A stretch of DNA of 64,000 bases. Origin: a bacterium 336/3. Lineage in GTDB: Bacteria > Bacteroidota > Bacteroidia > Cytophagales > Thermonemataceae. The stretch lies in contig LJIE01000001.1 in assembly GCA_001281695.1 (NCBI GenBank), positions 1,626,586 to 1,690,585 of the forward strand, read 5' to 3'. The notes under the pieces are model-generated. The model was not told where the DNA came from and made no database searches. It was given only the letters and a program-made list of their open reading frames with translations. Both the position numbers and the translations under genes were made by a program. Within the stretch, counting starts at the first letter, position 1. Every line of letters starts with the position of its first letter. This document shows positions 34,141 through 50,475 of this stretch, in pieces.

Positions 34141-34806
34141 CTATTTTATTAAACTACTTTGAAGTATAAAGTTTGAATTAGGGCAAATTTTTTGATAAAA
34201 TTCAATTTGTGAGCTTTCACAAACTCCAAAGAAATCCCCTTTTTTACCCTGTAAATCTAAAATAATCTGAAAATGTAGATGAGGTGACCAGTCGCCATTG
34301 ATAGGAAAATCTCCAAAATCTGCAAATTTTTCACCTTTCTTAATACTTTGTCTTTCCATCTTACCCTCCAAAGATTCCAGACTTAAATGTCCATAAAGTG
34401 TATAAAACGTAAGCTCCTCAATATAATGTTCTAAAATAATGGTTGGACCATAATCTCCAAAATTATTGTTATTCTGAAAGCTATGAATTACCCCATCACA
34501 AGGAGCAAAAACTGGTGTTCCTGCCTCTGCCCAAATATCAATGCCCAAATGAATATTACGAGCTCCTGTATCAGAACCAAAATGTTCACTTCTTCGATAA
34601 ATACTTCTTTTTTCTAAATATCCACCAATAGCAGCCTTTTTCTGATTAGAAGCAAGTATGTTTTTAAGCCATTTGTCGAAAGTGGCTGTATCCCAATGAG
34701 ATGCTTGAGAAAGTTCTGTGTTATTGGCAGAAAGATCTAAAACAAGAGTATCAGTTTCATCTAATTTAAAAGGGGTAACAGGAGCAAAATGGGTATTATT
34801 GAACAT
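34141..34806 (-). CDS. M23-type peptidoglycan endopeptidase domain protein
   Basis: This 221-aa protein has the LytM/M23 zinc site: His86 and Asp90 in NIHLGIDIW, His140 in TLYGHLS, and the HxH pair His176/His178 in SPHLHFQI. It is predicted to cleave peptide crossbridges. There is no signal peptide, transmembrane segment or LysM domain, so the location is uncertain: it may act on internalised fragments or be exported another way. The start at 34806 (MFNNTHF) gives the whole domain plus a short helical N-terminal stretch. The APC permease starts 40 bp downstream, and the first inverted-repeat element (34828-34895) lies 22 bp upstream of the start. Confidence 0.85.
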   Translation of the reverse strand: MFNNTHFAPVTPFKLDETDTLVLDLSANNTELSQASHWDTATFDKWLKNILASNQKKAAIGGYLEKRSIYRRSEHFGSDTGARNIHLGIDIWAEAGTPVFAPCDGVIHSFQNNNNFGDYGPTIILEHYIEELTFYTLYGHLSLESLEGKMERQSIKKGEKFADFGDFPINGDWSPHLHFQIILDLQGKKGDFFGVCESSQIEFYQKICPNSNFILQSSLIK

Positions 34807-34827: not shown

Positions 34828-34895
34828 AAACCTATAAGGTTTTGTAATGAGTCTACTTTTAGTTTTTGATATACAATTTTAAACCTTATAGGTTT
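34828..34895. repeat. Interspersed inverted-repeat element, copy 1
   Basis: AAACCTATAAGGTTT (34828-34842) and its exact reverse complement AAACCTTATAGGTTT (34881-34895) enclose 38 bp. Each arm is itself an inverted repeat (AAACC-N5-GGTTT). It lies in the spacer between the M23 gene and the divergent glycosyltransferase gene. The same arms recur at 38168-38245 and 50310-50378 with unrelated centres. Confidence 0.85.
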
Positions 34896-34960
34896 AAAAA
34901 ACACTTTTATTTGAGTATAAAGTGATATTTTGTTTAATTTGCTTTCCAAAAATCTGAATT

Positions 34961-35956
34961 TTGAATAAGAAATCCAAAATACTCGTTATACGTTTTTCGT
35001 CTATTGGTGACTGTATTTGGGTAACGCCTGTACTTCGTTGCCTGAAAGAACAGTTAAATTGTGAATTGCATTTTGCCACCAAAAAGGCTTATGAAGAGCT
35101 TTTTGAATGCAATCCACACGTTGATAAATTACAACTTTTAGATGAAAAAGGCTTGAACAATCTGATTTCAAGACTTAAAACAGAAAATTACGATTACATC
35201 ATTGATTTACACAAAAACTTAAGGACTTTGTGGCTCAAGATGCGTTTATGGGGAGTGAAAAGTTATTCATATCCCAAACTCACCTTCCAAAAATGGCAGT
35301 ATGTAAGCCTTAGAAAAAAAGATGCTTTGCCTCAAAATCATGTAGCTGATAGATACTTACAAACTGTTGAACCTTTGGGGGTAAAACCTGATAACAAAGG
35401 TTTGGAACTTATTATTCCTGAAAGAAATATTGTTCAAAAAGATTATTTTCCTGTATCGCATCAAAATGGATTTGTGGCTTTTGTGATAGGGGCAAGCTAT
35501 TATACTAAAAGATTACCACTTGAGAAATTGATAGAATTTTGTGAAAATATACAAAAGCCTGTGGTGTTGGTGGGTGGTAAAGAGGACAAAGAAATAGCAA
35601 ATGAAATAGAAATTTATTTTGCAGAAAAACGCCCTGATTTTATTTTAAACTTGTGTGGAAAGCTCAATATTGGGCAATCTGCTTCTGTGGTGAGCCAAGC
35701 AGAATATCTATACGGACACGATACAGGCTTGATGCACATTGCAGCCTGTTTTCAGAAGAAAATATATGCCATTTTTGGAGGCACAACACCTGAACTGGGT
35801 TTGTATCCATACCAAACTCCCCACAAAATTATTGAAAACAAAGATTTAGATTGCCGACCCTGCTCCAGATTAGGCAAAAAAACTTGTCCCAAAGGTCATT
35901 TTAATTGTATGATGACTTTGAGTAATGAGAAAATTGAAAAAAATAATGAGAGTTGA
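34961..35956 (+). CDS. Glycosyltransferase family 9 (heptosyltransferase-like)
   Basis: This 331-aa GT-B-fold protein has the GT9 features: N-terminal ILVIRFSSIGDCIWVTPVL (about 7-25) and the conserved second-domain segment YGHDTGLMHIAACFQK (about 250-265) with the downstream AIFGGTTPELGLYPY. A pair of Cys in DCRPCSR near the end is also common in the family. GT9 enzymes add heptose or related sugars to lipopolysaccharide core; the acceptor here is not known. The frame opens with TTG at 34961 with no ATG close by, so it probably uses a TTG start. Upstream lies inverted-repeat copy 1. Confidence 0.88.
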   Translation: MNKKSKILVIRFSSIGDCIWVTPVLRCLKEQLNCELHFATKKAYEELFECNPHVDKLQLLDEKGLNNLISRLKTENYDYIIDLHKNLRTLWLKMRLWGVKSYSYPKLTFQKWQYVSLRKKDALPQNHVADRYLQTVEPLGVKPDNKGLELIIPERNIVQKDYFPVSHQNGFVAFVIGASYYTKRLPLEKLIEFCENIQKPVVLVGGKEDKEIANEIEIYFAEKRPDFILNLCGKLNIGQSASVVSQAEYLYGHDTGLMHIAACFQKKIYAIFGGTTPELGLYPYQTPHKIIENKDLDCRPCSRLGKKTCPKGHFNCMMTLSNEKIEKNNES

Positions 35957-35992
35957 ATAGTTATCAGTTTATAATCAAAACCATTATCTCAA

Positions 35993-36436
35993 ATGAAATT
36001 TATCAATGTAGATATAACCAAATATAGTAAGATTTCTCATGATATTTTATATAGTGAGGATGATACTATCATGTATGCAAAGTTTTCAGGTAATTATGGG
36101 ATTGGTAGTCTTGGTAATGCAGATGGAACATATATATTTTCAACCTTAGCCTCATATTATTTTGCTTATGAAACGATAACTATTATACTTGATTTAACAG
36201 ATTTGGAATATTCTTGGGGAAACACCATTCTTAAATCATTAAACTTTTTTGAGGAAATAGGTCGAGATGAATTTGAAAAAGAACAATTGATGATTATAGT
36301 ATGCTCTCAAAATAATCAGGAAGCAATAGGAAATTTATTAAAATTTTCTTCAAGAGGACATAGATTTTTGTGTTTGGATAAAAATGTTGCAATAGAAACA
36401 GCTTTAAAATATGTTAAGGATTATTTAGATGAGTAA
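35993..36436 (+). CDS. Unknown small cytosolic protein (147 aa)
   Basis: The protein contains alternating strands and helices, e.g. FAYETITIILDLTDLEYSWGN (strand then turn) and EKEQLMIIVCSQNNQEAI, a layout similar to small alpha/beta domains such as STAS or ClpP-like folds, but no diagnostic motif is present and I do not name a family. It starts 36 bp after the glycosyltransferase stop. Composition is like its neighbours. The spacer after it (36437-36519) carries a perfect inverted repeat that reaches the M14 start codon. Confidence 0.6.
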   Translation: MKFINVDITKYSKISHDILYSEDDTIMYAKFSGNYGIGSLGNADGTYIFSTLASYYFAYETITIILDLTDLEYSWGNTILKSLNFFEEIGRDEFEKEQLMIIVCSQNNQEAIGNLLKFSSRGHRFLCLDKNVAIETALKYVKDYLDE

Positions 36437-36459
36437 ATGCTATAAAAAAATAATATCTC

Positions 36460-36522
36460 CATACTATTTTACATTAATCTGCGTTGCAACAGCAAACAAC
36501 ATAAACCAATTAAAATAGTATG
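36460..36522. repeat. 12-bp inverted repeat reaching the start codon of an M14 gene
   Basis: CATACTATTTTA (36460-36471) and its exact reverse complement TAAAATAGTATG (36511-36522) are separated by 39 nt. The last three bases of the right arm are the ATG of the next gene (36520). If transcription begins upstream of 36460 the stem would include the start codon. Confidence 0.6.
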
Positions 36523-38145
36523 CTACAAAAAAATGTACTCCTCATAGCTCTGATGTTGAGCTTTTATGGGTTGTTTGGGCAATCAGAATACAAAAGCTTT
36601 TCCCAGCTAACAGCCTCTCTCAAACAACTGAATAGCAAATATGGCAATCTTGCCGAACTTAAAAGTATTGGTAAAAGTGTACAGGGTAAAGAAATTTGGC
36701 TCTTGACACTCTCAAAAGGCGGTAAAGCCTCTGAAAAACCTGCCATACTGATTGCCTCTGGGCTTGATGCCTACCACTTGGCAGGCGTTGAAAGTAGCGT
36801 TCAGATTGCTGAAAAGTTTCTTCAAAATGCTTCAAAAGATAGCATTAACAAAGTTTTGGAGACTAAGACTATTTACGTTATACCTTGTGTAAATCCTGAT
36901 GCTTATGAGCAGGCATTTTCCAAAATTAAGTATGAAAGAAATGTAAATGGCTCTAATGCAGATAATGACAGAGATGGAAGATTCAATGAAGATGGTGTTG
37001 AAGATCTGAACAGTGATGGACTTATTACCATGCTTCGTATAGAAGACCCTACAGGAACGTTTAAAACACACAAAGATGATGCTCGTGTTCTTGTAAAAGC
37101 CGATGCCACCAAAGGAGAAACAGGAAAGTATATCGTTATTTCGGAAGGAACTGATAATGATAAAGATGGGAAATTTAATGAAGATGGAGAAGGTGGAATT
37201 GTCATGAATAAAAATTTTACACATGGTTATCCATTTTTTACAGATGGAGCAGGCGAATTTGCAGTTTCTGAGCCAGAAAACAGGGCATTGTTAGATTTTA
37301 TGTATGATGCAAAAAATATTTATGCTGTTTTCCAGTTTGGAGCAGCCAATAACCTAACGGAACCCAATAAATTTGATAGGGTAAAAGCTACTCAAAAAAT
37401 AGTATCAGGCTGGCAAGAAAAGGACGCTACCATCAACGACCAAGTTTCTAAACTTTATGGAAAAGCTGGCATCAAAGATTTGCCTAGTTTGCCTACAGGT
37501 GGTGGAAATTTCTCGAATTGGGCATATTATCATTATGGAAGACTGAGTTTTGCTACACCTGTTTGGTCTATTCCCAAAGATACAGCCAAAAAAGCTCAAA
37601 CAGATAATGAAGATGTTCGTTTTTTACGTTGGGCAGAAGCCAATAAAATTCCGAATGTGTTTGTGGACTGGAAGACCATCCAACACCCCGATTTCTCTGA
37701 TAAAAAAGTAGAAGTAGGTGGAATGACACCTTTTGTGAAACTAAATCCTCCTACACAATTTCTACAAAGTACTATTCAGAAACATAGTCAGTTTTTCTTG
37801 GATTTTGCATTCCTGATGCCTTCTGTTCAGATTGCCAACGTACGTACAGAAGCTGTTTCGGGTGGACTGACACGCATCACAGTAGATATTCATAACAAAG
37901 GTTCACTGCCTACACACAGCGAAATGGGCGAACGTACACGCCATGTAGATAAACTCAAAATTGAACTTGTTCATAGCAAAAGCCAAACCATTGTTGCAGG
38001 AAAGAGAATGGAAGTAGTCAGAAGGGCAATGGCTGGTGGCGAAAAAATGGAAGTTTCTTGGCTGGTGGCAGGCTCAGGAAGTGTACAGGTACAAGTAAGT
38101 GCAGGTACAATTGGTAAAGAGTCTGTGAATGTTAGTTTAAAGTAA
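36520..38145 (+). CDS. M14 carboxypeptidase-like protein, probably inactive
   Basis: The protein is 541 aa with a signal peptide (about 1-20, YGLFGQ) and an M14 zinc carboxypeptidase-like domain with an all-beta C-terminal extension. Compared with its neighbour at 38289, the HxxE zinc motif (HSNE) reads DAYH (Asp83-His86), the third ligand region GSQHYHN reads AVFQFGA, and the catalytic Glu in FVNELMT is replaced in SFATPVWS. Without those residues zinc binding and catalysis are unlikely. It carries three acidic loops of EF-hand/thrombospondin-3 style (DNDRDGRFNEDG near 147-158, DLNSDGLI and DNDKDGKFNEDG) that look like Ca2+ sites. The two genes are probably cotranscribed, with inverted-repeat copy 2 between them. 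Confidence 0.8.
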   Translation: MLQKNVLLIALMLSFYGLFGQSEYKSFSQLTASLKQLNSKYGNLAELKSIGKSVQGKEIWLLTLSKGGKASEKPAILIASGLDAYHLAGVESSVQIAEKFLQNASKDSINKVLETKTIYVIPCVNPDAYEQAFSKIKYERNVNGSNADNDRDGRFNEDGVEDLNSDGLITMLRIEDPTGTFKTHKDDARVLVKADATKGETGKYIVISEGTDNDKDGKFNEDGEGGIVMNKNFTHGYPFFTDGAGEFAVSEPENRALLDFMYDAKNIYAVFQFGAANNLTEPNKFDRVKATQKIVSGWQEKDATINDQVSKLYGKAGIKDLPSLPTGGGNFSNWAYYHYGRLSFATPVWSIPKDTAKKAQTDNEDVRFLRWAEANKIPNVFVDWKTIQHPDFSDKKVEVGGMTPFVKLNPPTQFLQSTIQKHSQFFLDFAFLMPSVQIANVRTEAVSGGLTRITVDIHNKGSLPTHSEMGERTRHVDKLKIELVHSKSQTIVAGKRMEVVRRAMAGGEKMEVSWLVAGSGSVQVQVSAGTIGKESVNVSLK

Positions 38146-38167
38146 TGAATGTTTCTTATTTACATCA

Positions 38168-38245
38168 AAACCTTATAGGTTTATAAAGTATAAAATAATT
38201 CTAATAACAGTTTTCAATTATTTAAAATTCAAACCTATAAGGTTT
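38168..38245. repeat. Interspersed inverted-repeat element, copy 2
   Basis: AAACCTTATAGGTTT (38168-38182) and AAACCTATAAGGTTT (38231-38245) flank 48 bp, with the arm order swapped compared with copies 1 and 3. It lies between the two M14 genes and does not touch coding sequence. Confidence 0.85.
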
Positions 38246-38288
38246 CTGTTAAGGGTTTATTTAGTATTTACATCAATCAAAGAATTTT

Positions 38289-40046
38289 ATGAACAAATAT
38301 ATATTGATTTTATTTTTTCTGATTTCTTTGGCAACTTTTGCCCAGAAGAAAGACGAATTGGGTTTAAGAGCCATCGGAACGCCACACAACCCCAAAGTGC
38401 AAGTGGCTTGGAACAGATATTATGCCTATGATGAAGTAGCAGAAATCTGTAAAAAAATACAAAAAGCTTATCCAAATCTGGTTACCTTAGAAAGTATCGG
38501 AAAGTCTTTCAAAGGAAAGGATATGTGGATAATGACTATTACAGACTCAAAAGGAGGAAAAGCTGAAAACAAACCCGCTTTTTACATTGATGGAAATATC
38601 CATTCCAATGAAATACAAGGTACAGAAATAGCACTTTATACAGCTTGGTACCTGACTGAAAATCATCAGAGTGTAAAATTTATCCAAGAACTTCTACAAG
38701 AAAAAACATTTTATATCATTCCATCCATCAACCCTGATGCAAGAGATGAGTTTTTGAAAAACCTTAACAATGCCAATACACCTCGTTCGGGTGTTGTTCC
38801 TGTGGATGATGATGGAGATGGAATCTTGGATGAAGACGATTTTGATGATTTGAATGGAGATGGCGAAGTAACCCTGATGCGTAGAAAAACCAAAACAGGA
38901 AGATACATTCCACATCCCGAAGATCCCAGACAACTGATTTTGGCAAAGCCGGGTGAAGAAGGAATGTACGAATTGCTTGGTTATGAAGGACTTGATAATG
39001 ATAATGATGGCTTTGTAAACGAAGATAGAAAAGGTTATTACGACCCTAATCGTGATTGGGGCTGGAACTGGCAACCAGACTACATTCAGTCAGGGGCAAA
39101 TAAATATCCATTTTCTCTGCCCGAATCAAGAAGTGTAATGGAATTTGTGATGAAACACCCCAATATTGCAGGTTCACAACATTATCATAATTATAGCGGA
39201 ATGTTTTTGAGAGGACCAGGTGCAGAGGAAGACCAATTTACTTACGCTCCTTCTGATATTGCCGTTTATGATGTACTAGGCAAAACAGGCGAAAAAATGA
39301 TACCAGGGTATAAATATTTAGTTTCTTATAAAGATTTGTATACTACTTATGGTGGAGCTTCTGAATGGATGCATGCAGGAAGAGGCGTAACAGCTTTTGT
39401 AAACGAATTGATGACATCTTATCTGCTTTTTGATAAAAATCCAGATGCAGGAATAGGCAGATTTGAAAACAATGAGTTTTATGAATTTGATAAATTACTA
39501 CTTTTTGGGGATGCTTTTATTGAATGGAAACCTTTCAAACACCCTAATTATGGTGATATAGAAATTGGAGGCTTTAAGAAAAACTATGTACGCAATCACC
39601 CAGGGTTTTTATTGGAGCAAGATGCTCACAGAAATATGGCTTTTACGCTGTTTCATGCATACAGTACACCCAAATTGGAGGTAGTAGAAGTAAAAAGTAA
39701 GTCTTTGGGTAATGGATTTACTCAAATTACGGCAACAGTTGCCAATACACGCCTTATACCCACACATTTGAGCCACGACATCAAAAATAAAATCAATCCG
39801 CCTAATTATATTACACTCAAAGGAGAAAATGTAGTGGCAGGTTTATTGATGGAAAATGCAGATTTTAATATTGGTAAAGAACAAAAAGGAAATCCGCCAG
39901 CAACTGTAGAAGTTACCAATATTGCAGGAATGGGTAATGTGAAAGTTCGTTGGATTGTAAAAGGCTCACCTAAAAATTATAACATTGAATTAAAAAGTGC
40001 CAAAGGTGGATTCAATACCCACACAGGTACTATACAACCTGAATAA
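38289..40046 (+). CDS. M14 family zinc carboxypeptidase, intact site
   Basis: This 585-aa exported protein has a signal peptide (about 1-19) and a peptidase M14 domain. Zinc ligands are His105 and Glu108 in GNIHSNEIQG, with the third His in GSQHYHN (His298 or His300); the catalytic Glu is Glu373 in FVNELMTS. An Asp-rich insertion with EF-hand-like loops (DDDGDGILDEDDFDDLNGDG near 174-193, and DNDNDGFVNEDRKG) breaks the domain and probably binds Ca2+. A C-terminal beta domain follows (about 460-585). It is predicted to remove C-terminal residues from peptides outside the cytoplasm. A terminator follows at 40053. Confidence 0.88.
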   Translation: MNKYILILFFLISLATFAQKKDELGLRAIGTPHNPKVQVAWNRYYAYDEVAEICKKIQKAYPNLVTLESIGKSFKGKDMWIMTITDSKGGKAENKPAFYIDGNIHSNEIQGTEIALYTAWYLTENHQSVKFIQELLQEKTFYIIPSINPDARDEFLKNLNNANTPRSGVVPVDDDGDGILDEDDFDDLNGDGEVTLMRRKTKTGRYIPHPEDPRQLILAKPGEEGMYELLGYEGLDNDNDGFVNEDRKGYYDPNRDWGWNWQPDYIQSGANKYPFSLPESRSVMEFVMKHPNIAGSQHYHNYSGMFLRGPGAEEDQFTYAPSDIAVYDVLGKTGEKMIPGYKYLVSYKDLYTTYGGASEWMHAGRGVTAFVNELMTSYLLFDKNPDAGIGRFENNEFYEFDKLLLFGDAFIEWKPFKHPNYGDIEIGGFKKNYVRNHPGFLLEQDAHRNMAFTLFHAYSTPKLEVVEVKSKSLGNGFTQITATVANTRLIPTHLSHDIKNKINPPNYITLKGENVVAGLLMENADFNIGKEQKGNPPATVEVTNIAGMGNVKVRWIVKGSPKNYNIELKSAKGGFNTHTGTIQPE

Positions 40047-40052
40047 TAAACG

Positions 40053-40079
40053 AAAAGGAGGTTTGAAAAACCTCCTTTT
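40053..40079. terminator. Bidirectional terminator
   Basis: AAAAGGAGGTTT (40053-40064) and AAACCTCCTTTT (40068-40079) form a 12-bp stem with a 3-nt loop and a T-run on each side, between the convergent genes ending at 40046 and 40080. Confidence 0.87.
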
Positions 40080-40478
40080 TTACTTTTCTGAAATAAAATA
40101 TACTTCTTGAATTTTGCCTAAAGCTATTTTATAAATAGCCACAGCATGTATAAGAGGCGTTCCTTTTTTAATAAAAACCTTTTCTTCATCAATCACAGTA
40201 TTTCCGACTACCACTCTGCTTTTGAGGGTACAATTCAGTTCAGGAAAGCTCTTAAACATCTCTGCATACGACTTTCGCATGGTTTCTTTTCCTTTGTACA
40301 TCAGTTTGTTAGGAAACTCATAAACTTTCACGCTATCACTATAAGGCTCTAAAAAAGCTTCGATATTGCGTTGATTATAGGCTTTGAGTTGTTGCTGGGC
40401 AAGGTCTGTAGGGGAGTTTTTTTGAGCCAAAAGGCTGAATGAGCCTAACATGGAGCAGAGTAAAAAGAGTTTTTTCAT
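40080..40478 (-). CDS. SnoaL/NTF2-like secreted protein
   Basis: This 132-aa protein has a signal peptide (about 1-18, FSLLAQ) and an NTF2/SnoaL-type alpha+beta domain: the pattern AQQQLKAYNQRNIEAFLEPY (about 27-46) followed by MYKGKETMRKSYAEMF is typical. Members serve as small-molecule binding or isomerase domains; no ligand or catalytic residues can be named here. It stands alone between convergent and divergent genes. Confidence 0.78.
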   Translation of the reverse strand: MKKLFLLCSMLGSFSLLAQKNSPTDLAQQQLKAYNQRNIEAFLEPYSDSVKVYEFPNKLMYKGKETMRKSYAEMFKSFPELNCTLKSRVVVGNTVIDEEKVFIKKGTPLIHAVAIYKIALGKIQEVYFISEK

Positions 40479-40580
40479 AAAAGGAAATAGAGATAAATGA
40501 TCAAATACTATTCAATAAAATTGCCTAATTTTACATAAAAACAAGGAAAAATGCTAACTTGGATTTCAAAATATAAAACT

Positions 40581-41285
40581 ATGTCTTCTGTTTTTCTTAC
40601 TGCTCAGTGGCAAAATTTGATAAATCTTACTTATGAAGTTCCTGTAAAAGTGTTAGAGCCTTATACCCCCAAAGGTGTTGAAATAGATACAGCACTCAAT
40701 GGGAAGGCTCATGCAAGTTTTGTGGCTTTCGATTTTCTAGACACCAAAGTAAAAGGTATCAAAATTCCTTTTCATGTCAATTTTCCTGAAATTAATCTGC
40801 GTTTTTATGTAAGATACAAAGGTGAAGTAGGAGTGGTATTTGTACGAGAATTTGTACCAAAATTCTGGATAGCTCTTGTGGCAAATGTTATTTATAATGA
40901 GCCTTATAAGGCTATTTCAATGCAATCAGAAGTGAAAACCAGTCCCGAGAACATTGCAGTAAAGCACAATTTTGGCTTTGATAACCAAAAATTTTCGGTA
41001 GAAACAATTGCCAAAAATGAGCCTTTTTTTCCTGAAAAAAATTCTGTTGAACATTATTTTAAAGAACATACTTGGGGTTTTGGACAAACTAGGGCAGGAA
41101 AAACCTTGCGTTATGAGGTAGAACACCCTATTTGGAGAATTTACCCTCTCGAAAGCTACAACTTAAATGTTGATTTTGGTAAAATATACGGCTCACAGTG
41201 GAGCTTCTTAAACGAAACTGAACCCAAGTATGCACTGTTGGCAGAGGGTTCAGCTATCAAGGTTTTTGGAGCAAAGGATTTATAA
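40581..41285 (+). CDS. YqjF/DUF2071 family protein
   Basis: From ATG 40581 (MSSVFLTAQW) this is a 234-aa protein with the DUF2071 pattern TAQWQNLINLTYEVPVKVL followed by PKGVEIDTALNGKAHASFVA and the VFVREFVPKF segment. The family is an acetoacetate decarboxylase-like beta fold with unknown substrates. An upstream ATG at 40551 would add 10 residues that do not fit the family's usual start. The stop lies 2 bp from the end of the large beta-helix gene on the other strand. Confidence 0.8.
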   Translation: MSSVFLTAQWQNLINLTYEVPVKVLEPYTPKGVEIDTALNGKAHASFVAFDFLDTKVKGIKIPFHVNFPEINLRFYVRYKGEVGVVFVREFVPKFWIALVANVIYNEPYKAISMQSEVKTSPENIAVKHNFGFDNQKFSVETIAKNEPFFPEKNSVEHYFKEHTWGFGQTRAGKTLRYEVEHPIWRIYPLESYNLNVDFGKIYGSQWSFLNETEPKYALLAEGSAIKVFGAKDL

Positions 41286-41287
41286 GA

Positions 41288-44200
41288 TTAATTTTTAATC
41301 ACTTTGTATCTTTTAGTGTTTTGTTCATCAGAAAATACCAAATAATACATTCCTGCTGGTAATTTTTGAAAATCAATTTGATTGAAGTTACCTTTAATAT
41401 TGTAAAAACCTAAGTTAGTACCTTTTACATCAAATATCTGCATTATTAGATTTTTACCAATATTATCTGGGTGTATTTTGATGTTCAATATACCATCAGT
41501 TGGGTTGGGGTAGATATTTTCTATAAAGTCTGAATTGGCAAAAAGATTAACACTGACAACTTGAGAATAACTAAACTGGTTATTTTTATCTACTTGACGT
41601 AAACGATAATAGATGGTGTTTTTACCTATTTCTTCAGCTTTTTTATCTTCAAAAAGATACTCTTTGATAGTTTTTGAAGTGCCTTTTGCTTCTGTTCTTC
41701 CAATTTTCTCAAAGGTAATCCCATCAAGGCTTCTTTCTATATCAAAATAGGCAGTATTTGTTTCTGAAACAGTTGCCCACAAAACTAAGGGAGTTTGTGT
41801 GCGTTCTTTCAGTGTAGCCCGAACATAAAGCCATTGTACAGGAAGTGGATTGGCAAGGTCGCTAATAGTCCATTGAGAAAACTCAGCTACATTGACAGCG
41901 ATACTATTGCGTAAGGGCGTTGAGGAATCAGCGAAATCACTACTTCTCTTCTCCCAATTACCTCCTGGGGCAGGGTTCAAACGCCAGATAGAAAGATTTG
42001 TTAGGTTTTTACCGTTATCCAAATCAGGCAACCAATTGAAGCTTACACCATTTCTGGCAACATTAAATTGAGGTTGAATGAACCAATTACAGGCAATAGA
42101 AATGCCAGATGGAGTTGTAACAATGCCTGCAACATCAGAAGTACGCAATAAATCTACATCACCCAAGTCTGCTCCAGCAGGAATATCAACACCCAAAAAT
42201 GTAAAAGCTCCAACGCCCACACTACGAACAGTTTGGGCTTGCCCAAGAATTCGACTATTACTTTTCTCTCCTACAGTAGCAGGATTAACAGCAGGGTCTA
42301 TGGCTGTTGCAGTAAAAATAAGGGTATTAGCATTTGTTTGAATATTGCCATCTGTAAAAGTAATTTGATTGCTAATACTCAAATTTCCTAATAAATTAAG
42401 TGTTTTGGCTACGCCATTCATTGTCCAGTTGGGTGTAACGACTGGTGTAGCTCCAACGGGTACAAAATCCATATCAAAGGCTGTAATAGGAATAGTAGTG
42501 ACATCATCAGTATATGTAAAACCCTCTACATTGATAGTGAAGCCATCTGTAGTTGGTACGCCAGTGCCTCGTTGTATGCGTGGTGAAGTAGTAAAAGGTG
42601 TTAAAAAACTGTTTTGAGTAACAAAAACATGATTTACTTTTACTGTAACAAAACCTAAAGGTTGATATTCGATGCGATGACTAACTTTATTTTCTAATAA
42701 AATTAAATCTGGATTTGACATCACAGAAGGTAATTGTAGCCCTGAACCAACATCAAAGTTATTAAATTGAGCATCAAAATTTTCGGCAACGGCAATGGTA
42801 GAAGTTACTGGGGCAGTCCAGATGGCAGGAACTACTGCCGAAGAAAGCCCAGCTTGCGGGTCTAAACTGATAAATGTAGCAATATTGTTTGCAAAATTAT
42901 TGGCTTCACCTGCTCCAGTTCCCCCTATATTGACGTTGGTAAAAGCTGGATTAGCACCTGAATGATGATTGGCAAAAAGAATGCTTGTCCCTCCTAAACT
43001 AGCATTTGCATTAAAATTATTGCCTCTGATAGTAATATTGTTACAGGAAACAGCTACAGATGCTCCTGTTGTTCTGAATTTTGTATTGACATGCACAAAA
43101 TTATACGTAGTATTGCCTGTAATGGGTGTAAAAGTATTATTTGTGATACTAATATTACTTGAATGTCCAACAAATACCCCAAAATTAACTACATCAGTAA
43201 AAGTATTGTTGTTGATATTGATGGCTGATGTTGTACTTCCATTTGCATTACCATTGTCTTTAATTTCTATCATTGAAAATGGATTTGTTGCAGTAACAGT
43301 AGCAAAAGTATTGTTAGAGATGGTATGTGTGCCATTGGGTTGTCCGGGTACATTGATTTCAATGCCTGCATCTCCAATCACATTAAAAGTATTACCACTT
43401 ATAGTCATGTTACCACCAAAAAGATTGGGAAGTTGTAAACCATAAAACGTTGTAAATGTATTATTACTAATAGTTCCAAAATTACCAACGCTTCGTACTC
43501 CACGACCAAAAAGAGCATTTCCAGCCCCTGAAAATATGGTGTTATTAGAGATGCTAACATTATTGTTGCCAATAGCAAAGCCACTACCAGCCTCTGAAAG
43601 TCCAATACCAAATGCATTGAAATTAAGAGCTCCAGAGGAAATGTTTTCTATCAAATTATTTCTAATATCAAGATTATTATAAGAAAGCGATACACCCTGA
43701 TTGGCTACACCAATGCCATATTTTCTTGGAAAAGTTACAGTGGTTTGCCCAATTATTCTTAAATGTAAATTATCAATTGTAATATTTTGGGCAGCTACTT
43801 GAAGTACAGCCAATATGTCTGTGGTGTTGGTGAGTGTGGGGCGTGTACCACCACCATCACCAAGTAGTGTGATAGCTCTGTCAATAGTAATCATGGTGGC
43901 AATAGGATAATTACCAGCCCTGATGTCTAAAATATCTTTAATAACAGGGTTTGCAATATTAATACCTTGTTGAATAGGTAATAAAGCTGTAGTAATGCGT
44001 GTAGTTACATCTGCTTCAGCTCTGTAAGTTTTTGAACTATTCATTTGAACACCTCTTTGGAGTGAGTTGGTGCCAGCAACATCATCTAAATCTGTAGCTG
44101 CCCAAGGATTGAAAGCTGCATTGTTGTTGGGACTTGAGGCAAAAGAAGCAAAAGCAGGGTTAGAAACGACATGACTTTCAATATCAGAAATAGTAAAAGT

Positions 44201-45541
44201 AACTCCACCAAGAAAATTGCCAGTATAATCTACAACATTATTGGGTAGGAAATTTGAATTTTGAATATTTCTAATGGATTTTGATGTATAGGCTGTAATG
44301 TTATTGTATCTGACAATAGAACCATTGCAACTTATGGAATTGTCTCTATCAAAATATAAGGTATTAGCATTACCAGTTGTAGAGGGGCTATCTGAAGCAG
44401 TGCCTGCATTGGTATTTCCTCCTTGAAGTTGTACACCAATCTGACAACCTGTAACTTGGTTGTTGATAATTTTGTGATTTTCGCCTCCAGCTACGATTCC
44501 AAAACCATTGCCAATAACACCAGCACAAGTACCACAAGTACCATCTCCAGGCTGTATATTTTCTATGGTATTCCCTGTGATGACTACACCACTGGGCTCC
44601 AAAAGTGCTGCCGTACCAGCTCTACGACAAATAACAGCAATCCCAGCATAATCTCTGGAGTTATTGCCTACACCATTTTTGAATACATGATTATCAGAAA
44701 CTACCACACGCCCATTTCCTGTAAGATTACCAGTACCAACCATGTTTTTTATTTCCATTCCAAAACGCTGGTTAGCAGACATTTCAATGATATTATTGGT
44801 GATAAGTATTTGGCACGAAGCAGGTGAGGCGTTACCTTTATACAGGCTCATGCCAGCATCTCCATTGTTGCGAGCTTCACAACCTGAAATAGTCAAGTTA
44901 TTTATGGAAGTGTGGGGACCTAAATCAAATCCAACTAAACCATTGTTGTTAAATTGTGTATTGTTCAGTGTAATATCTCCATAAGTGGCATTAGAAGTAA
45001 GGAGCCATATACCTCTGCCAGAAGCTACAGTATTATTATTGTTAAAAAAAGAATTACTAATGACCAATCCTGTTGTACCCGTAATATTTGCTCCACTTAC
45101 CAAAAAACCATATGTAGTATTTTGATTAGAAGCTATATTTAGCATATTCAGGTTTGTGATTGTAATAGCTGTTGTAGCATTTAAGCCATTTACAAAACCT
45201 GTTATGGTAATATCTTGTATTGTTATATCATTAACATTAGTTGTAAAGTTTATACCATTGCCCGTTCCGCTACCTTGTATAATAGTAGTACCTAATCCAG
45301 CTCCAGAGATATTTACAGATTTATTGAGAATAACATTTTCATTGTAAGAGCCAGCAGCAATTTGTATGGTTTCATTGGATAAAGCCTGTGAAATTGCATG
45401 ATTGATGGTCTGACAAGGAGAACCCGCAAGACTACAATCGTTGGCAGTATCATTGCCTGTAGTAGATACAAAACGAGTTTGAGCATGGATAGAAACTCCA
45501 AAAAATGAAGTAACTACCAAGAAAAAAGTAAATTTATTCAT
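41288..45541 (-). CDS. Giant beta-helix T9SS cargo protein (1417 aa)
   Basis: A signal peptide (about 1-20, SIHAQ) is followed by the motif RFVSTTGNDTANDC, typical of extracellular right-handed beta-helix proteins, and then long stretches of Asn/Ile-rich coils (VISNNTF, INNNTFTDV and similar) that make a parallel beta-helix over about residues 30-900. Later regions include beta-sandwich segments and, at about 1340-1417, a type A T9SS sorting domain (NIYPNPTDGILNIKI and a Lys-rich end). It is therefore secreted across the outer membrane and cleaved or attached at the surface. The substrate, likely polysaccharide or another surface polymer, is unknown. The gene is isolated: 303 bp of AT-rich DNA lie upstream. 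Confidence 0.85.
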   Translation of the reverse strand: MNKFTFFLVVTSFFGVSIHAQTRFVSTTGNDTANDCSLAGSPCQTINHAISQALSNETIQIAAGSYNENVILNKSVNISGAGLGTTIIQGSGTGNGINFTTNVNDITIQDITITGFVNGLNATTAITITNLNMLNIASNQNTTYGFLVSGANITGTTGLVISNSFFNNNNTVASGRGIWLLTSNATYGDITLNNTQFNNNGLVGFDLGPHTSINNLTISGCEARNNGDAGMSLYKGNASPASCQILITNNIIEMSANQRFGMEIKNMVGTGNLTGNGRVVVSDNHVFKNGVGNNSRDYAGIAVICRRAGTAALLEPSGVVITGNTIENIQPGDGTCGTCAGVIGNGFGIVAGGENHKIINNQVTGCQIGVQLQGGNTNAGTASDSPSTTGNANTLYFDRDNSISCNGSIVRYNNITAYTSKSIRNIQNSNFLPNNVVDYTGNFLGGVTFTISDIESHVVSNPAFASFASSPNNNAAFNPWAATDLDDVAGTNSLQRGVQMNSSKTYRAEADVTTRITTALLPIQQGINIANPVIKDILDIRAGNYPIATMITIDRAITLLGDGGGTRPTLTNTTDILAVLQVAAQNITIDNLHLRIIGQTTVTFPRKYGIGVANQGVSLSYNNLDIRNNLIENISSGALNFNAFGIGLSEAGSGFAIGNNNVSISNNTIFSGAGNALFGRGVRSVGNFGTISNNTFTTFYGLQLPNLFGGNMTISGNTFNVIGDAGIEINVPGQPNGTHTISNNTFATVTATNPFSMIEIKDNGNANGSTTSAININNNTFTDVVNFGVFVGHSSNISITNNTFTPITGNTTYNFVHVNTKFRTTGASVAVSCNNITIRGNNFNANASLGGTSILFANHHSGANPAFTNVNIGGTGAGEANNFANNIATFISLDPQAGLSSAVVPAIWTAPVTSTIAVAENFDAQFNNFDVGSGLQLPSVMSNPDLILLENKVSHRIEYQPLGFVTVKVNHVFVTQNSFLTPFTTSPRIQRGTGVPTTDGFTINVEGFTYTDDVTTIPITAFDMDFVPVGATPVVTPNWTMNGVAKTLNLLGNLSISNQITFTDGNIQTNANTLIFTATAIDPAVNPATVGEKSNSRILGQAQTVRSVGVGAFTFLGVDIPAGADLGDVDLLRTSDVAGIVTTPSGISIACNWFIQPQFNVARNGVSFNWLPDLDNGKNLTNLSIWRLNPAPGGNWEKRSSDFADSSTPLRNSIAVNVAEFSQWTISDLANPLPVQWLYVRATLKERTQTPLVLWATVSETNTAYFDIERSLDGITFEKIGRTEAKGTSKTIKEYLFEDKKAEEIGKNTIYYRLRQVDKNNQFSYSQVVSVNLFANSDFIENIYPNPTDGILNIKIHPDNIGKNLIMQIFDVKGTNLGFYNIKGNFNQIDFQKLPAGMYYLVFSDEQNTKRYKVIKN

Positions 45542-45844
45542 GGAAATAAAGTTTTAGTGAAAGTGTTTGTGTTTATCCCTTAAAAAACTATTAAGTAACT
45601 ATTTATAAATTTCTTATGAAGCTCTACTTAGACAATTGTTATCTAAAAAATGTTCTGATTTCTGTTTTTGAAAAGTTTTTAGCTTTGAAAAAATATTTTT
45701 TCTTTATTAAAGGTGCTAATTTTTGTTTGGCGTGAAATATTGTATAAAAAACAATAGTGAAGATACAATTTTTTTCTCTTTTTGATATATGTATTAATAA
45801 AAATTTTGGGTGTTTTTTTAATCATCCAAAATAATTTGCAAATT
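45542..45844. other. AT-rich spacer without a gene
   Basis: This 303-bp region lies upstream of the beta-helix gene and downstream of the serine hydrolase gene, both on the minus strand. I see no gene, tRNA or repeat element in it. It probably holds the promoter of the beta-helix gene; no clear TAnnTTTG box was found on the minus strand. A weak terminator candidate lies at its right end. Confidence 0.6.
45804..45831 (-). terminator. Possible terminator of the serine hydrolase gene
   Basis: On the minus strand TTTTGGATG and CACCCAAAA pair with one mismatch around a 10-nt loop, followed by TTTTTATT. It starts 14 bp after the stop at 45845. Confidence 0.4.
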
Positions 45845-47236
45845 CTACTTTAAAAGCCATTCAATAATTTGAATACCAACACTATCGGGACCTTCGGAGG
45901 CGTTTGTGAGTATGACAATACCTACTTTTTTATTTTTATCGAAAGCCATAAAACTACGATAACCACCTGTTCCTCCATTGTGCCAAAGAATTGTGTTTAC
46001 ATCTTTTTTCATTTTGAACCAACCCAAACCTATTTCTTCTTTAGCAGAGTAGGTAGTAGTTTGAGCCAAATTAAAAGCACTACTCCACAAAAGTTTGTTG
46101 TAAGTATTTATTTGAGCATTGGTATATAAAAGCATATCTGAAACCGTTGAACGAATAGCCCCAGCAGCAGCCAAAGCCTGAAAATCCCAATTACTGTTTT
46201 CCTCTGTAGCTTCATTATAGCCTTTGGCAAATCTTGTAAACTGATTTTCAGATGTTTTGAGATGAGTGTCTTTCATTTCTAAAGGCAAAGCAATTTTTTC
46301 TTTTATTAATTCTTCATAGCTTTTTTTATACACTCTCTCTAAAATAACACCCAATAAACCCACGCCTAAATTGGAGTATTCAAGTTGTTTTTCAGGCTCT
46401 CTGGTAAGTTTTAGTTTCTTGAGATATTCGAAAAGCTCTTTATTGGTATAGTTTTTATAAGGATTTTTTTCATCGAAGCCTGCAAGTTGGAAGAAATCTT
46501 CGGGCATACGAGGTAAGCCTGATGTATGGTTTGCCAAATGCTTTATAAGAATAGGCTTCCCATTAAAGGCTAATTTTGGAATATCTTTGGGTAGATACTT
46601 GTTAATTTCGTCATTAAGACTGATTTTTTTCTCTACAACAGCCATAGCAAGCAAACTACCTGTAAAAGTTTTTGAAATAGAGCCTATCTCAAAAATGGTG
46701 TTTTCGGTTGGGAGAGTTTTATTACCTTTTTGGGTTTCACCATAATTATAGAAATAGATCTTTCCATCTCTGATAATGCCAATACTCATACCCATTGTAC
46801 CAGTCTGTTGCATAAATGGGCTTACAAATGCGTCAATTTGCTTGTCTAAATTGGTTTGGAGAGGGTTGGAGGTGATAGCTTTTTCTTTGGTTTGTTCTGT
46901 ATGGGGTTTAAACTGCAAACCTGCAATTTTACCTGATTTATCTGTGTATAAAAGCATTTTAAAAGTCTTCTTTTCTCCTTTTACGAGATATTCATTAGGT
47001 TTTTGAAGAGTAATAGATTGTATTTTACCCATAGCTTGCATCAAACCAGCACTAAACCCTTCAAAATCTGTTGCAGGAACTTGTTTTTGGAATTTTTCGG
47101 TGAGTGTGGCATAAATTGCAGAAAACTCTCCTGTATTCATTTTGTCTTTGATAAACTGAGCTGTTTGGTCTGTAGTCATTTGTCCAAAAACAGTATTGAG
47201 GGAAAAGAAAAGCAAAAATGAAAATAAACGTTTCAT
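45845..47236 (-). CDS. Serine hydrolase of the class C beta-lactamase type
   Basis: From ATG 47236 (MKRLFSF) this is 463 aa: signal peptide 1-19 (VFGQ), a small N-terminal DUF3887-like domain (about 22-110) and a beta-lactamase/transpeptidase-like domain. The active-site motifs are SISK with Ser186-Lys189, YSN with Tyr287-Asn289, and HNGGTGG near the C-terminus. Such proteins are peptidases or esterases more often than antibiotic resistance enzymes. Upstream codons to 47365 are open but read as non-coding. A TAATTTTG element at 47308-47315 on the minus strand fits a -7 box. It is divergent from the ABC-F gene. Confidence 0.88.
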   Translation of the reverse strand: MKRLFSFLLFFSLNTVFGQMTTDQTAQFIKDKMNTGEFSAIYATLTEKFQKQVPATDFEGFSAGLMQAMGKIQSITLQKPNEYLVKGEKKTFKMLLYTDKSGKIAGLQFKPHTEQTKEKAITSNPLQTNLDKQIDAFVSPFMQQTGTMGMSIGIIRDGKIYFYNYGETQKGNKTLPTENTIFEIGSISKTFTGSLLAMAVVEKKISLNDEINKYLPKDIPKLAFNGKPILIKHLANHTSGLPRMPEDFFQLAGFDEKNPYKNYTNKELFEYLKKLKLTREPEKQLEYSNLGVGLLGVILERVYKKSYEELIKEKIALPLEMKDTHLKTSENQFTRFAKGYNEATEENSNWDFQALAAAGAIRSTVSDMLLYTNAQINTYNKLLWSSAFNLAQTTTYSAKEEIGLGWFKMKKDVNTILWHNGGTGGYRSFMAFDKNKKVGIVILTNASEGPDSVGIQIIEWLLK

Positions 47237-47364
47237 ATTGATAAAGTTTGTAAGAAGGCTCTTTTTATTAAAACGTTTGAAATAAGGTGAAATTGCATAA
47301 ATACATACAAAATTATAAGCGTTAAAAAAGATAAAGTCGTAACTTGCACCCAAAAAAAGAAACA

Positions 47365-49239
47365 ATGAATATACTTTCAGCTGATAATATTTCTAAACAA
47401 TTTGGTGACCGTTATTTACTCAAAAATGTTACATTGGGAGTCTTAAAAGGGCAAAAAATAGCTTTAGTAGGAAGCAATGGTTCAGGTAAAACAACTCTTT
47501 TGAATATACTGACTGGCTCAATATTGCCCGATGAGGGCAAAGTAGCCACTCGAAAAGATGTGAAAATTGGATTTTTAAGCCAGAATCCACAATTTGATGA
47601 AAAACTAAGTATTGCAGATACTATTTTTACATCTGAAAACCCTCAACAAAAGGCTATCAAAGCTTACGAACAAGCTCTTTTACATCCAGAAAAGCCTGAG
47701 GCCTTACAAAAATCTTTAGAAATGATGGATGATTTGCAGGCTTGGGATTATGAAATTAAAATTAAACAGATTTTAGGAAAACTGGATATCCATGATTTAG
47801 ATAAAAAGATTTCAGAGCTTTCAGGTGGACAGAAAAAGCGAGTAGCTTTGGCATACTTCCTAATTGACGACCCTGACTTGCTGATATTGGATGAGCCTAC
47901 CAACCATTTGGATGTAGAAACGATTGAATGGCTTGAGTACCAATTGAGTATGTCTGAAAAGTCTCTATTGCTGGTTAGTCACGATAGATACTTTTTAGAT
48001 AAAGTTTGTAATAAAATTGTAGAACTCGATTTTGGACAAATCTATCATTACGAAGGAAATTATGGTTACTTCTTAGAGAAAAAAGCAGAGAGAGAGGCTA
48101 TTGAACAATCTGAAATCCAGAAAGCTAAAAATCTTTTCAGAAAAGAACTCGAATGGATTCGTAAACAACCCAAAGCAAGAGGTACAAAAGCTAAATATAG
48201 AATTGATAATTTCTATAAAATTCAGGAAAAGGCTCAATCAGGTAAACAAGAACAAAACCTTCAGATTGATACAAAAACAAGTCGTTTGGGGAATAAAATT
48301 TTAGAATTAAAAGATGTTTATAAAAAATACGGTGTTCAGAAAATAGCAGAAAACCTAACTTATACATTCCAAAAAGGTGAAAAAATAGGTATTGTAGGGG
48401 TTAATGGAGTAGGTAAGTCAACACTTCTCAAAATGATAACTGGACAGATTGCACCAGACCAAGGAACTATCGAATTGGGTGAAACTGTGAAGTTGGGATA
48501 TTACTCACAAGACGAACTCAAGTACCAAGAAGGACAAAGAGTTTTAGATTTTATCAAGGAAATAGCCGAAGTAGTAACTTTAGGTAATGGTGAAACCATT
48601 ACGGCATCACAATTTCTAAATCGTTTTTTGTTTTCGCCTGAAGTACAATATAAACCCATTGAAAAATTGAGTGGAGGAGAGAAGAGACGTTTACAACTGA
48701 TGCAAGTACTGATTCAAAATCCTAATTTTCTGATATTGGATGAGCCTACCAATGATTTAGACATCCAGACACTCAATATTTTAGAAGAATTTCTTGAAAA
48801 CTTTCAAGGGTGTTTGTTATTGGTTAGTCACGACCGTTATTTTATGGATAAATTGGTTGAACATCTTTTTATTTTAGAAGGAGAAGGTAAAATCAAAGAT
48901 TTTAATGGTAATTATTCTGATTATAGAAACTGGCTTGATGAACAGACAGAACAAGAAAAAATGCAAGAAAAAAATAAATCAGAGAAAATAGAGACTAAAA
49001 TAGAACCAACAATCACTGCCAGTGTTTCCAAACGTAAACTAAGTTTCAAAGAAAAGCAAGAATTTGAAAGTTTAGAAAAAGAAATCAAGCAACTTGAACA
49101 GAAAAAAGCTCAATTAGTGGAAAAACTTAATGTTGGTGAAGGCTCACATGAAGATTTGATAAATTGGGCTAAAGAAATTGAACAGATTTCAAGCCTCTTG
49201 GATGAAAAAGAAATACGTTGGTTAGAATTGAGTGAGTAA
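47365..49239 (+). CDS. Uup-type ABC-F ATPase
   Basis: Start chosen at ATG 47365 (MNILSAD) rather than the upstream TTG; 624 aa. Two ABC cassettes are present: Walker A GSNGSGKT (about 35) and GVNGVGKS (about 345), signature motifs LSGGQKKR and LSGGEKRR, and Walker B LLILDEPTNHLD and FLILDEPTNDLD. There are no transmembrane segments. A C-terminal basic coiled coil (KRKLSFKEKQEFESLEK region, about 550-615) marks it as an Uup-type ABC-F protein. ABC-F proteins act on ribosomes; Uup has also been linked to ribosome rescue and DNA transposition control. The start of the next gene overlaps or nearly touches its stop. Confidence 0.9.
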   Translation: MNILSADNISKQFGDRYLLKNVTLGVLKGQKIALVGSNGSGKTTLLNILTGSILPDEGKVATRKDVKIGFLSQNPQFDEKLSIADTIFTSENPQQKAIKAYEQALLHPEKPEALQKSLEMMDDLQAWDYEIKIKQILGKLDIHDLDKKISELSGGQKKRVALAYFLIDDPDLLILDEPTNHLDVETIEWLEYQLSMSEKSLLLVSHDRYFLDKVCNKIVELDFGQIYHYEGNYGYFLEKKAEREAIEQSEIQKAKNLFRKELEWIRKQPKARGTKAKYRIDNFYKIQEKAQSGKQEQNLQIDTKTSRLGNKILELKDVYKKYGVQKIAENLTYTFQKGEKIGIVGVNGVGKSTLLKMITGQIAPDQGTIELGETVKLGYYSQDELKYQEGQRVLDFIKEIAEVVTLGNGETITASQFLNRFLFSPEVQYKPIEKLSGGEKRRLQLMQVLIQNPNFLILDEPTNDLDIQTLNILEEFLENFQGCLLLVSHDRYFMDKLVEHLFILEGEGKIKDFNGNYSDYRNWLDEQTEQEKMQEKNKSEKIETKIEPTITASVSKRKLSFKEKQEFESLEKEIKQLEQKKAQLVEKLNVGEGSHEDLINWAKEIEQISSLLDEKEIRWLELSE

Positions 49240-49243
49240 AATA

Positions 49244-49639
49244 ATGGAGATTTTTAGTTTGGAAAGTTTATTAGGTAAGAAAGTAGAAAATATTGAAATT
49301 TTTTTAGACAAGGATTACCCCAATCAACATAATGTTTTAGAAAAAATAGTTTTCTATTTGGACAATAAAGCTTTGTCTATTGAACCTATTATAAATAATG
49401 ATGAAATTAAAATTAGTATTTATAATGCTAAAAAAGAAGTATTACAGGACAATGAGCTTCATATATTATCTAAATTTATTGGAACACATTTAAACTATAC
49501 ATGGAATTGTATTAATACAAAAGGTTATTTTGATATATTTTTAATGTCTTTCCATAATTTAAGACCCTCACTTATGATTTTAAGTGAGGGAAGTGGTTTG
49601 AAATTATTTTTTCTTGATACAAACATTCCATTGTTTTGA
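49244..49639 (+). CDS. Unknown small protein (131 aa)
   Basis: From ATG 49244 (MEIFSLES) this is a 131-aa protein with a strand-rich pattern (KIVFYLDNKALSIEPI then DEIKISIYNAK) and no known motif. A GTG at 49232, overlapping the uup stop, is an alternative start. Close linkage to uup suggests cotranscription, although the function may be unrelated. A perfect 10-bp inverted repeat lies within its 3' coding part (49565-49590), and a weak terminator-like hairpin (GTTTTGAG/CTCAAAAC at 49633-49657) follows its stop. I do not recognise the family. Confidence 0.6.
   Translation: MEIFSLESLLGKKVENIEIFLDKDYPNQHNVLEKIVFYLDNKALSIEPIINNDEIKISIYNAKKEVLQDNELHILSKFIGTHLNYTWNCINTKGYFDIFLMSFHNLRPSLMILSEGSGLKLFFLDTNIPLF
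49565..49590 (+). repeat. Perfect 10-bp inverted repeat within coding sequence
   Basis: CCCTCACTTA (49565-49574) and TAAGTGAGGG (49581-49590) are separated by TGATTT, in the region coding for RPSLMILSEG. There is no T-run behind it. It could be an mRNA hairpin or coincidence. Confidence 0.45.
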
Positions 49640-49666
49640 GAGTTAGATACTCAAAACCATCTTTTT

Positions 49667-50305
49667 ATGCAAAAACGTTTTACCAAAGAAGGAATAGCTG
49701 AATTAGAAACACTCTATCGCAGAAATTTAATGAATACACTGATTGGTTTTAAAAATGCCAATCTGATAGGTACTAAAAATTCGCAGGGACAAACAAATCT
49801 AGCTGTATTTAATTCTTTTGTACACTTAGGAGCAAATCCGCCCCATATTGCCTTTGTGATGCGACCAACCACCGTAGAAAGACATACCTACGATAACATT
49901 CGTGAAACAGGTTTTTATACCATCAATCATATTCAAACGAGTATTGTAAAACAGGCTCATCAGACTTCAGCCAAATACCCCAAAGAAGTATCTGAGTTTG
50001 AGGCTTGTGGATTGGAAGAGGAATATAAAAATGACTTTTTTGCACCTTACTTAACAGGGGCAAACATTCAAATTGGGTTGAAATTTGTGGAAGAGATTTA
50101 CATTAAAACCAATGATGTATATCTGATGATAGGCGAAGTACAGGAGTTTTATATTCAGGAAGATTGCATCCGTCCTGATGGTTTTATAGACCTTGCCAAA
50201 GCCCAAACGGCTGTAATTAGCGGATTGGATGCTTATTACAAAGCTACTGAAATAGCCCGATACAGTTATGCAAGACCTAATCAGGAAATTCAGAGTATTT
50301 TTTAG
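49667..50305 (+). CDS. Flavin reductase family protein
   Basis: This 212-aa protein has an FMN-binding flavin-reductase-like split beta-barrel: LMNTLIGFKNANLIGT (about 21-36), LAVFNSFVHLGANPPHIAFVM and the TxERHTYDNIRETGFYTINH segment. Members reduce flavin with NAD(P)H or act as flavin-dependent oxidoreductases with a partner monooxygenase. No partner gene is adjacent; it is followed by inverted-repeat copy 3 and then trxB. Subfamily and substrate are uncertain. Confidence 0.85.
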   Translation: MQKRFTKEGIAELETLYRRNLMNTLIGFKNANLIGTKNSQGQTNLAVFNSFVHLGANPPHIAFVMRPTTVERHTYDNIRETGFYTINHIQTSIVKQAHQTSAKYPKEVSEFEACGLEEEYKNDFFAPYLTGANIQIGLKFVEEIYIKTNDVYLMIGEVQEFYIQEDCIRPDGFIDLAKAQTAVISGLDAYYKATEIARYSYARPNQEIQSIF

Positions 50306-50309
50306 AGTT

Positions 50310-50378
50310 AAACCTATAAGGTTTTCAAAATATTTCAAAGAAAAATTATAGATACATTACCCCAAACCTTATAGGTTT
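50310..50378. repeat. Interspersed inverted-repeat element, copy 3
   Basis: AAACCTATAAGGTTT (50310-50324) and AAACCTTATAGGTTT (50364-50378) flank 39 bp in the spacer between the flavin reductase gene and trxB. It begins 4 bp after the flavin reductase stop, so it could act as a hairpin at the 3' end of that transcript. Confidence 0.85.
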
Positions 50379-50475
50379 TTCATCCTTTTGTTTGAATATC
50401 ATTGAACTTTTTAGGAAAATTTATTTGTTTTGCCTTTAGAAATTGTGTAGAAATTGTCAAAATCTTAAAATTCAA

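Follow-up and report, generated by a model that had tools for sequence, protein, structure and literature searches.

The genome of the Cytophagales bacterium 336/3 (4.7 Mb; G000, with main contig C1) carries a family of short palindromic repeats, three copies of which were found in a 64,000-nt stretch referred to here as the window (contig LJIE01000001.1, positions 1,626,586 to 1,690,585). Among the explanations weighed below, we tentatively favor the one in which the three copies belong to a dispersed, non-autonomous intergenic repeat resembling repetitive extragenic palindrome (REP) doublets forming hairpins (REPINs) and bacterial interspersed mosaic elements (BIMEs), with no linked REP-associated tyrosine transposase (RAYT) found. 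It is filed as REPIN/BIME-like because a tag at the palindrome foot and a cognate RAYT, both defining features, were absent at the loci tested. Position numbers are those of the window, F denotes the arm AAACCTATAAGGTTT, and R denotes its reverse complement.

34828 to 34895: copy 1, order F-R, arms 34828-34842 and 34881-34895, spacer of 38 bp; between the divergent open reading frames (ORFs) 34141-34806 (minus strand, peptidase M23 type) and 34961-35956 (plus strand, glycosyltransferase family 9 type).
38168 to 38245: copy 2, order R-F, arms 38168-38182 and 38231-38245, spacer of 48 bp; between ORF 36520-38145 (plus strand) and ORF 38289-40046 (plus strand, peptidase M14 type).
50310 to 50378: copy 3, order F-R, arms 50310-50324 and 50364-50378, spacer of 39 bp; after ORF 49667-50305 (stop 4 bp before the copy) and before a pyridine-nucleotide-disulfide oxidoreductase ORF (start at 50443 or 50476), read by us as thioredoxin-reductase-like.

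An earlier reading made from the letters alone (the sequence-only reading) had proposed perfect 15-bp arms at these three sites, reversed in order in the middle copy and always intergenic. The arms are exact, complementary throughout, and separated by 38, 48, and 39 bp; copy 2 is R-F and copies 1 and 3 are F-R, and each lies between predicted ORFs. The same reading had described each arm as AAACC-N5-GGTTT, which holds as an inverted repeat, although the true form, AAACCT-N3-AGGTTT, is one base pair longer. The proposed unit would therefore comprise two 15-bp self-complementary palindromes of this form inverted around a spacer. When single-stranded, as DNA or RNA, its arms could pair into one 15-bp hairpin or fold singly into weak 6-bp hairpins, the choice that the sequence-only reading had anticipated; a 15-bp hairpin was predicted on both strands of every window copy, and the lone arm was weaker (−3 kcal/mol). 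RNA folding z scores on the two strands were −3.1 and −3.6 for copy 1, −4.3 and −5.3 for copy 2, and −3.7 and −4.0 for copy 3.

The arms are far more frequent than expected by chance. AAACCN5GGTTT occurs 6 times in the window versus 0.16 expected, a count reached in none of 100 shuffles. The genome-wide search for the two 15-mers that had been suggested extended the family well beyond three copies, with 38 exact arms against none for the reversed control pattern; AACCTN3AGGTT was found in 49 places versus 8, and AAACCTN3AGGTTT gave 43 arms. Among 98 self-complementary hexamers arranged around 3 bases (at least two G/C), AAACCT ranked first in a 464-kb sample with 16 occurrences, the runner-up having 2; self-palindromic arms formed 7 inverted pairs in that sample, every one of the AAACCT family. 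The sample consisted of the window and 20 further stretches of the genome at roughly even steps, picked with copy locations already known; one of them, at 1.26 Mb, had been moved from its step and contains one copy. As a separate observation, positions 1 to 1,270,315 of C1 hold no exact ATA-type arm (24 loci on the main contig; Kolmogorov-Smirnov P = 0.016); with the window's own loci set aside (leaving 21), the probability of an empty first 1.27 Mb was 0.0004, with the boundary chosen post hoc.

Neighboring arms, defined as those less than 110 bp apart, are inverted and match each other at their centers. Across 22 loci of the 336/3 genome, the center triplets were complementary in 16 of 18 neighboring pairs and direct in none, the two exceptions differing in the center triplet. 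Complementary pairs were equally dominant in the loci from which pairing in relatives was judged: 19/20 in G001 (a genome of the same genus), 16/17 in genome G065, 33/36 in metagenome-assembled genomes (MAGs), and 12/13 in viral contigs (two loci counted twice). Pooled over the five sets, 96 of 104 pairs were complementary, 3 direct, and 5 neither. Center triplets vary between loci and genomes while matching their own partner arm; those of G001 are diverse (ATG, ATC, ATA, and ACA).

Spacing depends on arm order. When up to two mismatches per arm were allowed, start-to-start distances in the 336/3 genome were 63 to 68 bp in 7 of 10 R-F pairs (the rest 30, 39, and 42) and 48 to 55 bp in 9 of 14 F-R pairs (the rest 15, 17, 18, 18, and 39). 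At some seemingly single arms (L056, L058, and L062) a decayed partner was found. At L050 (positions 2048 to 2465 of that locus), a NifU-like gene is flanked by two F-R pairs, each with one slightly decayed arm.

The seven long R-F spacers of the genome are mutually alike (local score z of 12.1 against mononucleotide shuffles), and the 50 bp to the left and right of the same copies gave z of only 2.5 and 1.0. Spacer identity was compared for 9 of the 10 R-F and 9 of the 14 F-R spacers, omitting short ones and L048, and reached 0.68 for R-F (shuffled mean, 0.61; shuffled maximum, 0.63). Because the spacers share sequence and the flanks hardly do, the R-F form in this genome is a dispersed unit of ∼80 bp, with homology bounded by the arms, which are far better conserved than the spacers. 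The motif GATTAWCAA, chosen by eye from these spacers, occurs in 6 of 9 R-F spacers and in none of 9 F-R spacers. The REP-type family suggested by the sequence-only reading is supported: copies are scattered through the genome, lie between genes, and form inverted doublets; relatives have arrays that mainly alternate (L068, L070, L073, and L075); and the arms are better conserved than the spacers. Its other suggestion, a MITE (miniature inverted-repeat transposable element), is not supported in the strict sense; at 79 pairs, no flanking direct repeat of at least 3 bp was found (1.6 expected by chance).

We propose that copies would spread through a hairpin recognized in single-stranded DNA by an enzyme leaving no target duplication. 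Tandem gain could then generate the alternating arrays of relatives, and any effect on host transcripts would be secondary. By analogy, judging from its dispersal, inversion, alternating arrays, and conservation pattern, the repeat may work like a REPIN or BIME. REPINs of Pseudomonas fluorescens SBW25 are inverted REP doublets with a spacer less conserved than the REPs, according to PMC3116915. The AAACCT elements resemble them in being intergenic inverted doublets with better-conserved ends, a predicted hairpin in single-stranded DNA or RNA, and decayed singlets; unlike REPINs, they have no adjoining cognate RAYT at the 58 distinct loci examined and no visible conserved foot tag, their core is common to distant families, and the center triplet covaries with the partner arm. 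BIMEs contain palindromes in alternating orientation (PMC2817692), and the likeness to BIME-1 and BIME-2 extends to order-dependent spacing and a shared motif inside the R-F form. The motif between BIME-1 palindromes binds integration host factor (IHF). AAACCT repeats differ from both BIME types in lacking a RAYT link and having perfect arms. Hairpin repeats also accompany TnpA-REP subclasses 2.4 and 2.6 in Bacteroidetes, the same phylum (PMC6006769); they flank the gene there, whereas AAACCT hairpins did not do so at any of the 58 distinct loci examined. No description of this repeat was found in the open-licence literature searched by arm sequence with six variants and by topic.

Several results weigh against this reading. 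No conserved tetranucleotide tag (GT[AG]G or CGTC) was visible by eye at the palindrome foot of seven aligned R-F copies from the 336/3 genome, and none of 61 Y1_Tnp loci (58 distinct) carried AACCTN3AGGTT within about 1.5 kb. With 43 arms, 336/3 has fewer copies than the >100 per genome usual for REPs (PMC2817692); G065 has 213. F-R spacers barely exceeded shuffles (z of 3.3; identity, 0.609; shuffled mean, 0.593; shuffled maximum, 0.615), so F-R copies may not constitute a single mobile unit. Seven R-F copies of MAG 2_bin.42 have flanks that resemble one another (z of 10.3 and 12.6) to the same degree as their spacers do (11.5), so the repeat there extends past the arms. Stems in G001 extend past the arms by 1.41 bases versus 0.60 expected (2 of 500 shuffles), which would also be expected from a terminator or from replication slippage. 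No empty site was seen in congeners, because gene order is not preserved even among members of the genus. In the viral set (13 clusters, some duplicated), a stop codon lies 4 to 18 nt before the cluster in 6 of the 7 with a stop on the reading side, and two relatives of one viral locus (proteins 54 and 57% identical) have hairpins that look terminator-like by eye after the same gene.

The explanation given for REPIN-like repeats is a linked RAYT transposase. A widespread paired palindrome lacking that link, whose core is common to distant families and whose centers vary by locus but remain complementary, would mean that such repeats can also be made and kept by another enzyme or by DNA replication itself. 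Such an origin is testable in G001, which has 92 arms and, at 97% completeness, no Y1_Tnp match. It is possible, if doubtful, that the repeat forms a class of its own, a hairpin DNA element whose complementarity would be kept by hairpin pairing or template switching and which a non-RAYT enzyme that processes single strands would spread across Bacteroidota and into phage-like contigs (up to 68% G+C).

It is rather unlikely that these are ordinary REPINs or BIMEs whose RAYT was lost from the genome or acts in trans from an unlinked gene, an explanation that shares the match in architecture with the elements described in PMC3116915 and PMC2817692. Y1_Tnp was searched for in the 336/3 genome (1 match), 13 many-copy genomes (64 matches), 98 relatives, and 6 MAG genomes (37 matches). 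It is somewhat commoner where arms are abundant: among genomes of at least 2.5 Mb, it was matched in 20 of the 21 that have 10 arms or more and in 33 of the 46 that have no more than 2 (Fisher P = 0.049; Spearman coefficient of 0.24 over 86 genomes), so a RAYT may be distant or lost. The loci themselves speak against it. The 61 examined comprised 30 of the 64 from many-copy genomes, 30 of the 37 from MAG genomes, and the one from 336/3; three are repeats (one MAG genome repeats G027), 7 are cut by contig ends, and, as stated, AACCTN3AGGTT was absent from all of them, as was Y1_Tnp from G001. Other AACCN5GGTT palindromes were present at two of these loci, L288 and L296, the one at L296 being unrelated.

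The single Y1_Tnp (RAYT-like) gene of 336/3 lies at L059, 9851-10501 (G000 C1, about 2,819,850 to 2,820,500). The check for a REP-type transposase proposed in the sequence-only reading thus found one such gene in the genome, but it is flanked by two different hairpins of its own, of the TTCG...CGAA type (TTCGAGATTTGTAATCTCGAA and TTCGTGATTACAAATCACGAA), of which no further copies were found in the stretches of the genome searched. This gene may be related to TnpA-REP subclass 2.6 (PMC6006769), although its motifs fit only in part. At L288 (1995 to 2292) of a Saprospiraceae MAG genome, a RAYT-like gene is followed by a direct array of eight AACCCGTCGGGTT and one variant. The protein beside the L220 hairpin was considered as a transposase and dropped when Pfam gave no family.

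Intrinsic terminators combine a stem-loop with a U-tract. It is unlikely that the copies are transcript-level elements, that is, terminators, attenuators, or RNase III-type processing hairpins under selection in intercistronic RNA, although some findings are in line with this: each window copy has a predicted hairpin on either strand, 24 of 28 clusters lie between codirectional genes, and viral and plasmid copies occur near stop codons, the plasmid ones being a single Bernardetia copy and a single Spirosoma copy that adjoin them. Of 36 tails in the 336/3 genome, both strands included, 7 had at least 7 T in 10 nt, but none had a run of at least 6 T directly after the stem, whereas of four hairpins taken from convergent gaps in the window, three had 6 to 7 T. 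As a stem-loop the AAACCT element resembles an intrinsic terminator, but it has no U-tract of 6 in this genome. A separate terminator scan allows loops of 3 to 8 only and carries no weight here. Start codons are approached about as often as stop codons (11 versus 13), and three clusters lie between divergent genes. A role as intrinsic terminator in the 336/3 genome is accordingly disfavored, and such hairpins there should not be read as terminators; in phage-like contigs, the short form may be one. Rfam covariance models run on 10 loci gave 5 matches up to an E value of 1, one of them on the L075 array, and none at the gathering score.

The context counts used 28 clusters of the 336/3 genome, excluding the single variant sites L064 to L066 (L064 is inside an ORF). 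Twenty-seven clusters are intergenic and one is within a mechanical ORF; 24 have codirectional neighbors, 3 (one of these in the window) sit between divergent genes, and none has convergent neighbors. The codirectional excess is modest because background gaps are mostly codirectional too (230 of 330 gaps of any length, with 55 divergent and 45 convergent). The absence of convergent gaps among the 27 is likewise a weak point, because such gaps are few (8 of 145 of at least 80 bp; 45 of 330 overall). Median distances were 29 to the nearest stop and 26 to the nearest start, and of the codirectional clusters 13 are nearer the preceding stop and 11 nearer the next start.

A pair of protein-binding sites, whether for a nucleoid protein, for one resembling gyrase or IHF, or for a regulator, seems improbable. 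Palindromic arms at set distances and the distribution of GATTAWCAA would suit it. The IHF consensus is WATCAANNNNTTR, which 2 of 9 R-F spacers match (0.10 expected). Nevertheless, a dimer binding a palindrome would not need complementary center triplets between arms, and start-to-start spacing varies from 15 to 68 bp. The protein-binding site that the sequence-only reading had allowed for, taken as a regulon operator, is not supported by the neighboring genes, since a family scan of 28 proteins (downstream and divergent genes only) showed unrelated families and no common function. These include RuvB, M23 and M14 peptidases, a pyridine-nucleotide oxidoreductase, NifU, a gyrase-B-like protein, PorZ, and a pseudouridine synthase, and 4 proteins had no family. 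The PorZ domain, together with the relatives, places the host in Bacteroidota, probably in Cytophagales.

MITEs have inverted arms and a target duplication; the AAACCT pairs share the former and not the latter. It is very improbable that the repeat is a DDE-type MITE whose terminal inverted repeats are the arms: R-F copies of 336/3 are alike within the arms and hardly beyond, and a MITE-like repeat surrounds a short hairpin in G065 (below), but the lack of a direct repeat of at least 3 bp at 79 pairs makes DDE-type transposition that uses the arms as its ends unlikely, and no transposase was among the 28 neighboring proteins, with no search aimed at an autonomous DDE partner made.

The repeat favored here as REPIN/BIME-like recurs in other genomes. 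AAACCTN3AGGTTT was present in 65 of 98 genomes (336/3 included; range, 0 to 213; reversed pattern, 0 to 8), with at least 10 matches in 21, so that the conservation in relatives asked about in the sequence-only reading exists, patchily, within Bacteroidota. In a phylum sample, 112 of 296 genomes had at least one match, most at chance-level numbers, and 23 had at least 10 by our count. MAGs named Cytophagales, Saprospiraceae, Flectobacillus, and others have the ∼80-bp R-F form or arrays that mainly alternate, and the paired copies examined in G001 and G065 are short hairpins, mostly with 3 to 5 bases between 15-bp arms. Genes of the window are present in three congeners (G001 to G003), spread over contigs. 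Matches to window genes fell at 31 places in congeners; of the 20 loci examined, one has any AACCTN3AGGTT, ∼0.8 kb from the match, and the window copies are therefore at other places in the congeners.

In G065, loci L242 to L267 contain a ∼120-bp MITE-like repeat with TGTTCAATAAA inverted ends and an AAACCT short hairpin at its center; inspection by eye suggested short NTAN-type duplications on its flanks. Of 40 scored among 534 candidates, 25 matches spanned at least ∼100 bases, with 94 to 100% identity in 23. The AAACCT hairpin would be a passenger in this young repeat.

AAACCT short doublets were found in 12 phage-like contigs, several with 50 to 68% G+C and some loci common to several contigs, versus none for the reversed pattern and one for a scrambled pattern of equal composition. 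The ATA form with 0 to 30 bases between arms had no match in viral contigs in a first scan. Among named phages, where the ATA form was not searched, three non-ATA short forms yielded no more than 3 matches, all weak and to Vibrio phages. An analogue, AAACCCN3GGGTTT, is present in 8 phage-like contigs (L308 to L315), its pairs being direct or unrelated and never complementary. In plasmids, two other forms gave nothing at an E value of 0.1, and the ATA form matched Bernardetia and Spirosoma records plus weak matches. Elsewhere on the Bernardetia plasmid, six 50-kb stretches had no AAACCT arm and one AAACCC-type doublet, at L303 41280-41310 (NZ_CP147018.1, 141280-141310), which has AAACCC-N3-GGGTTT arms with complementary centers.

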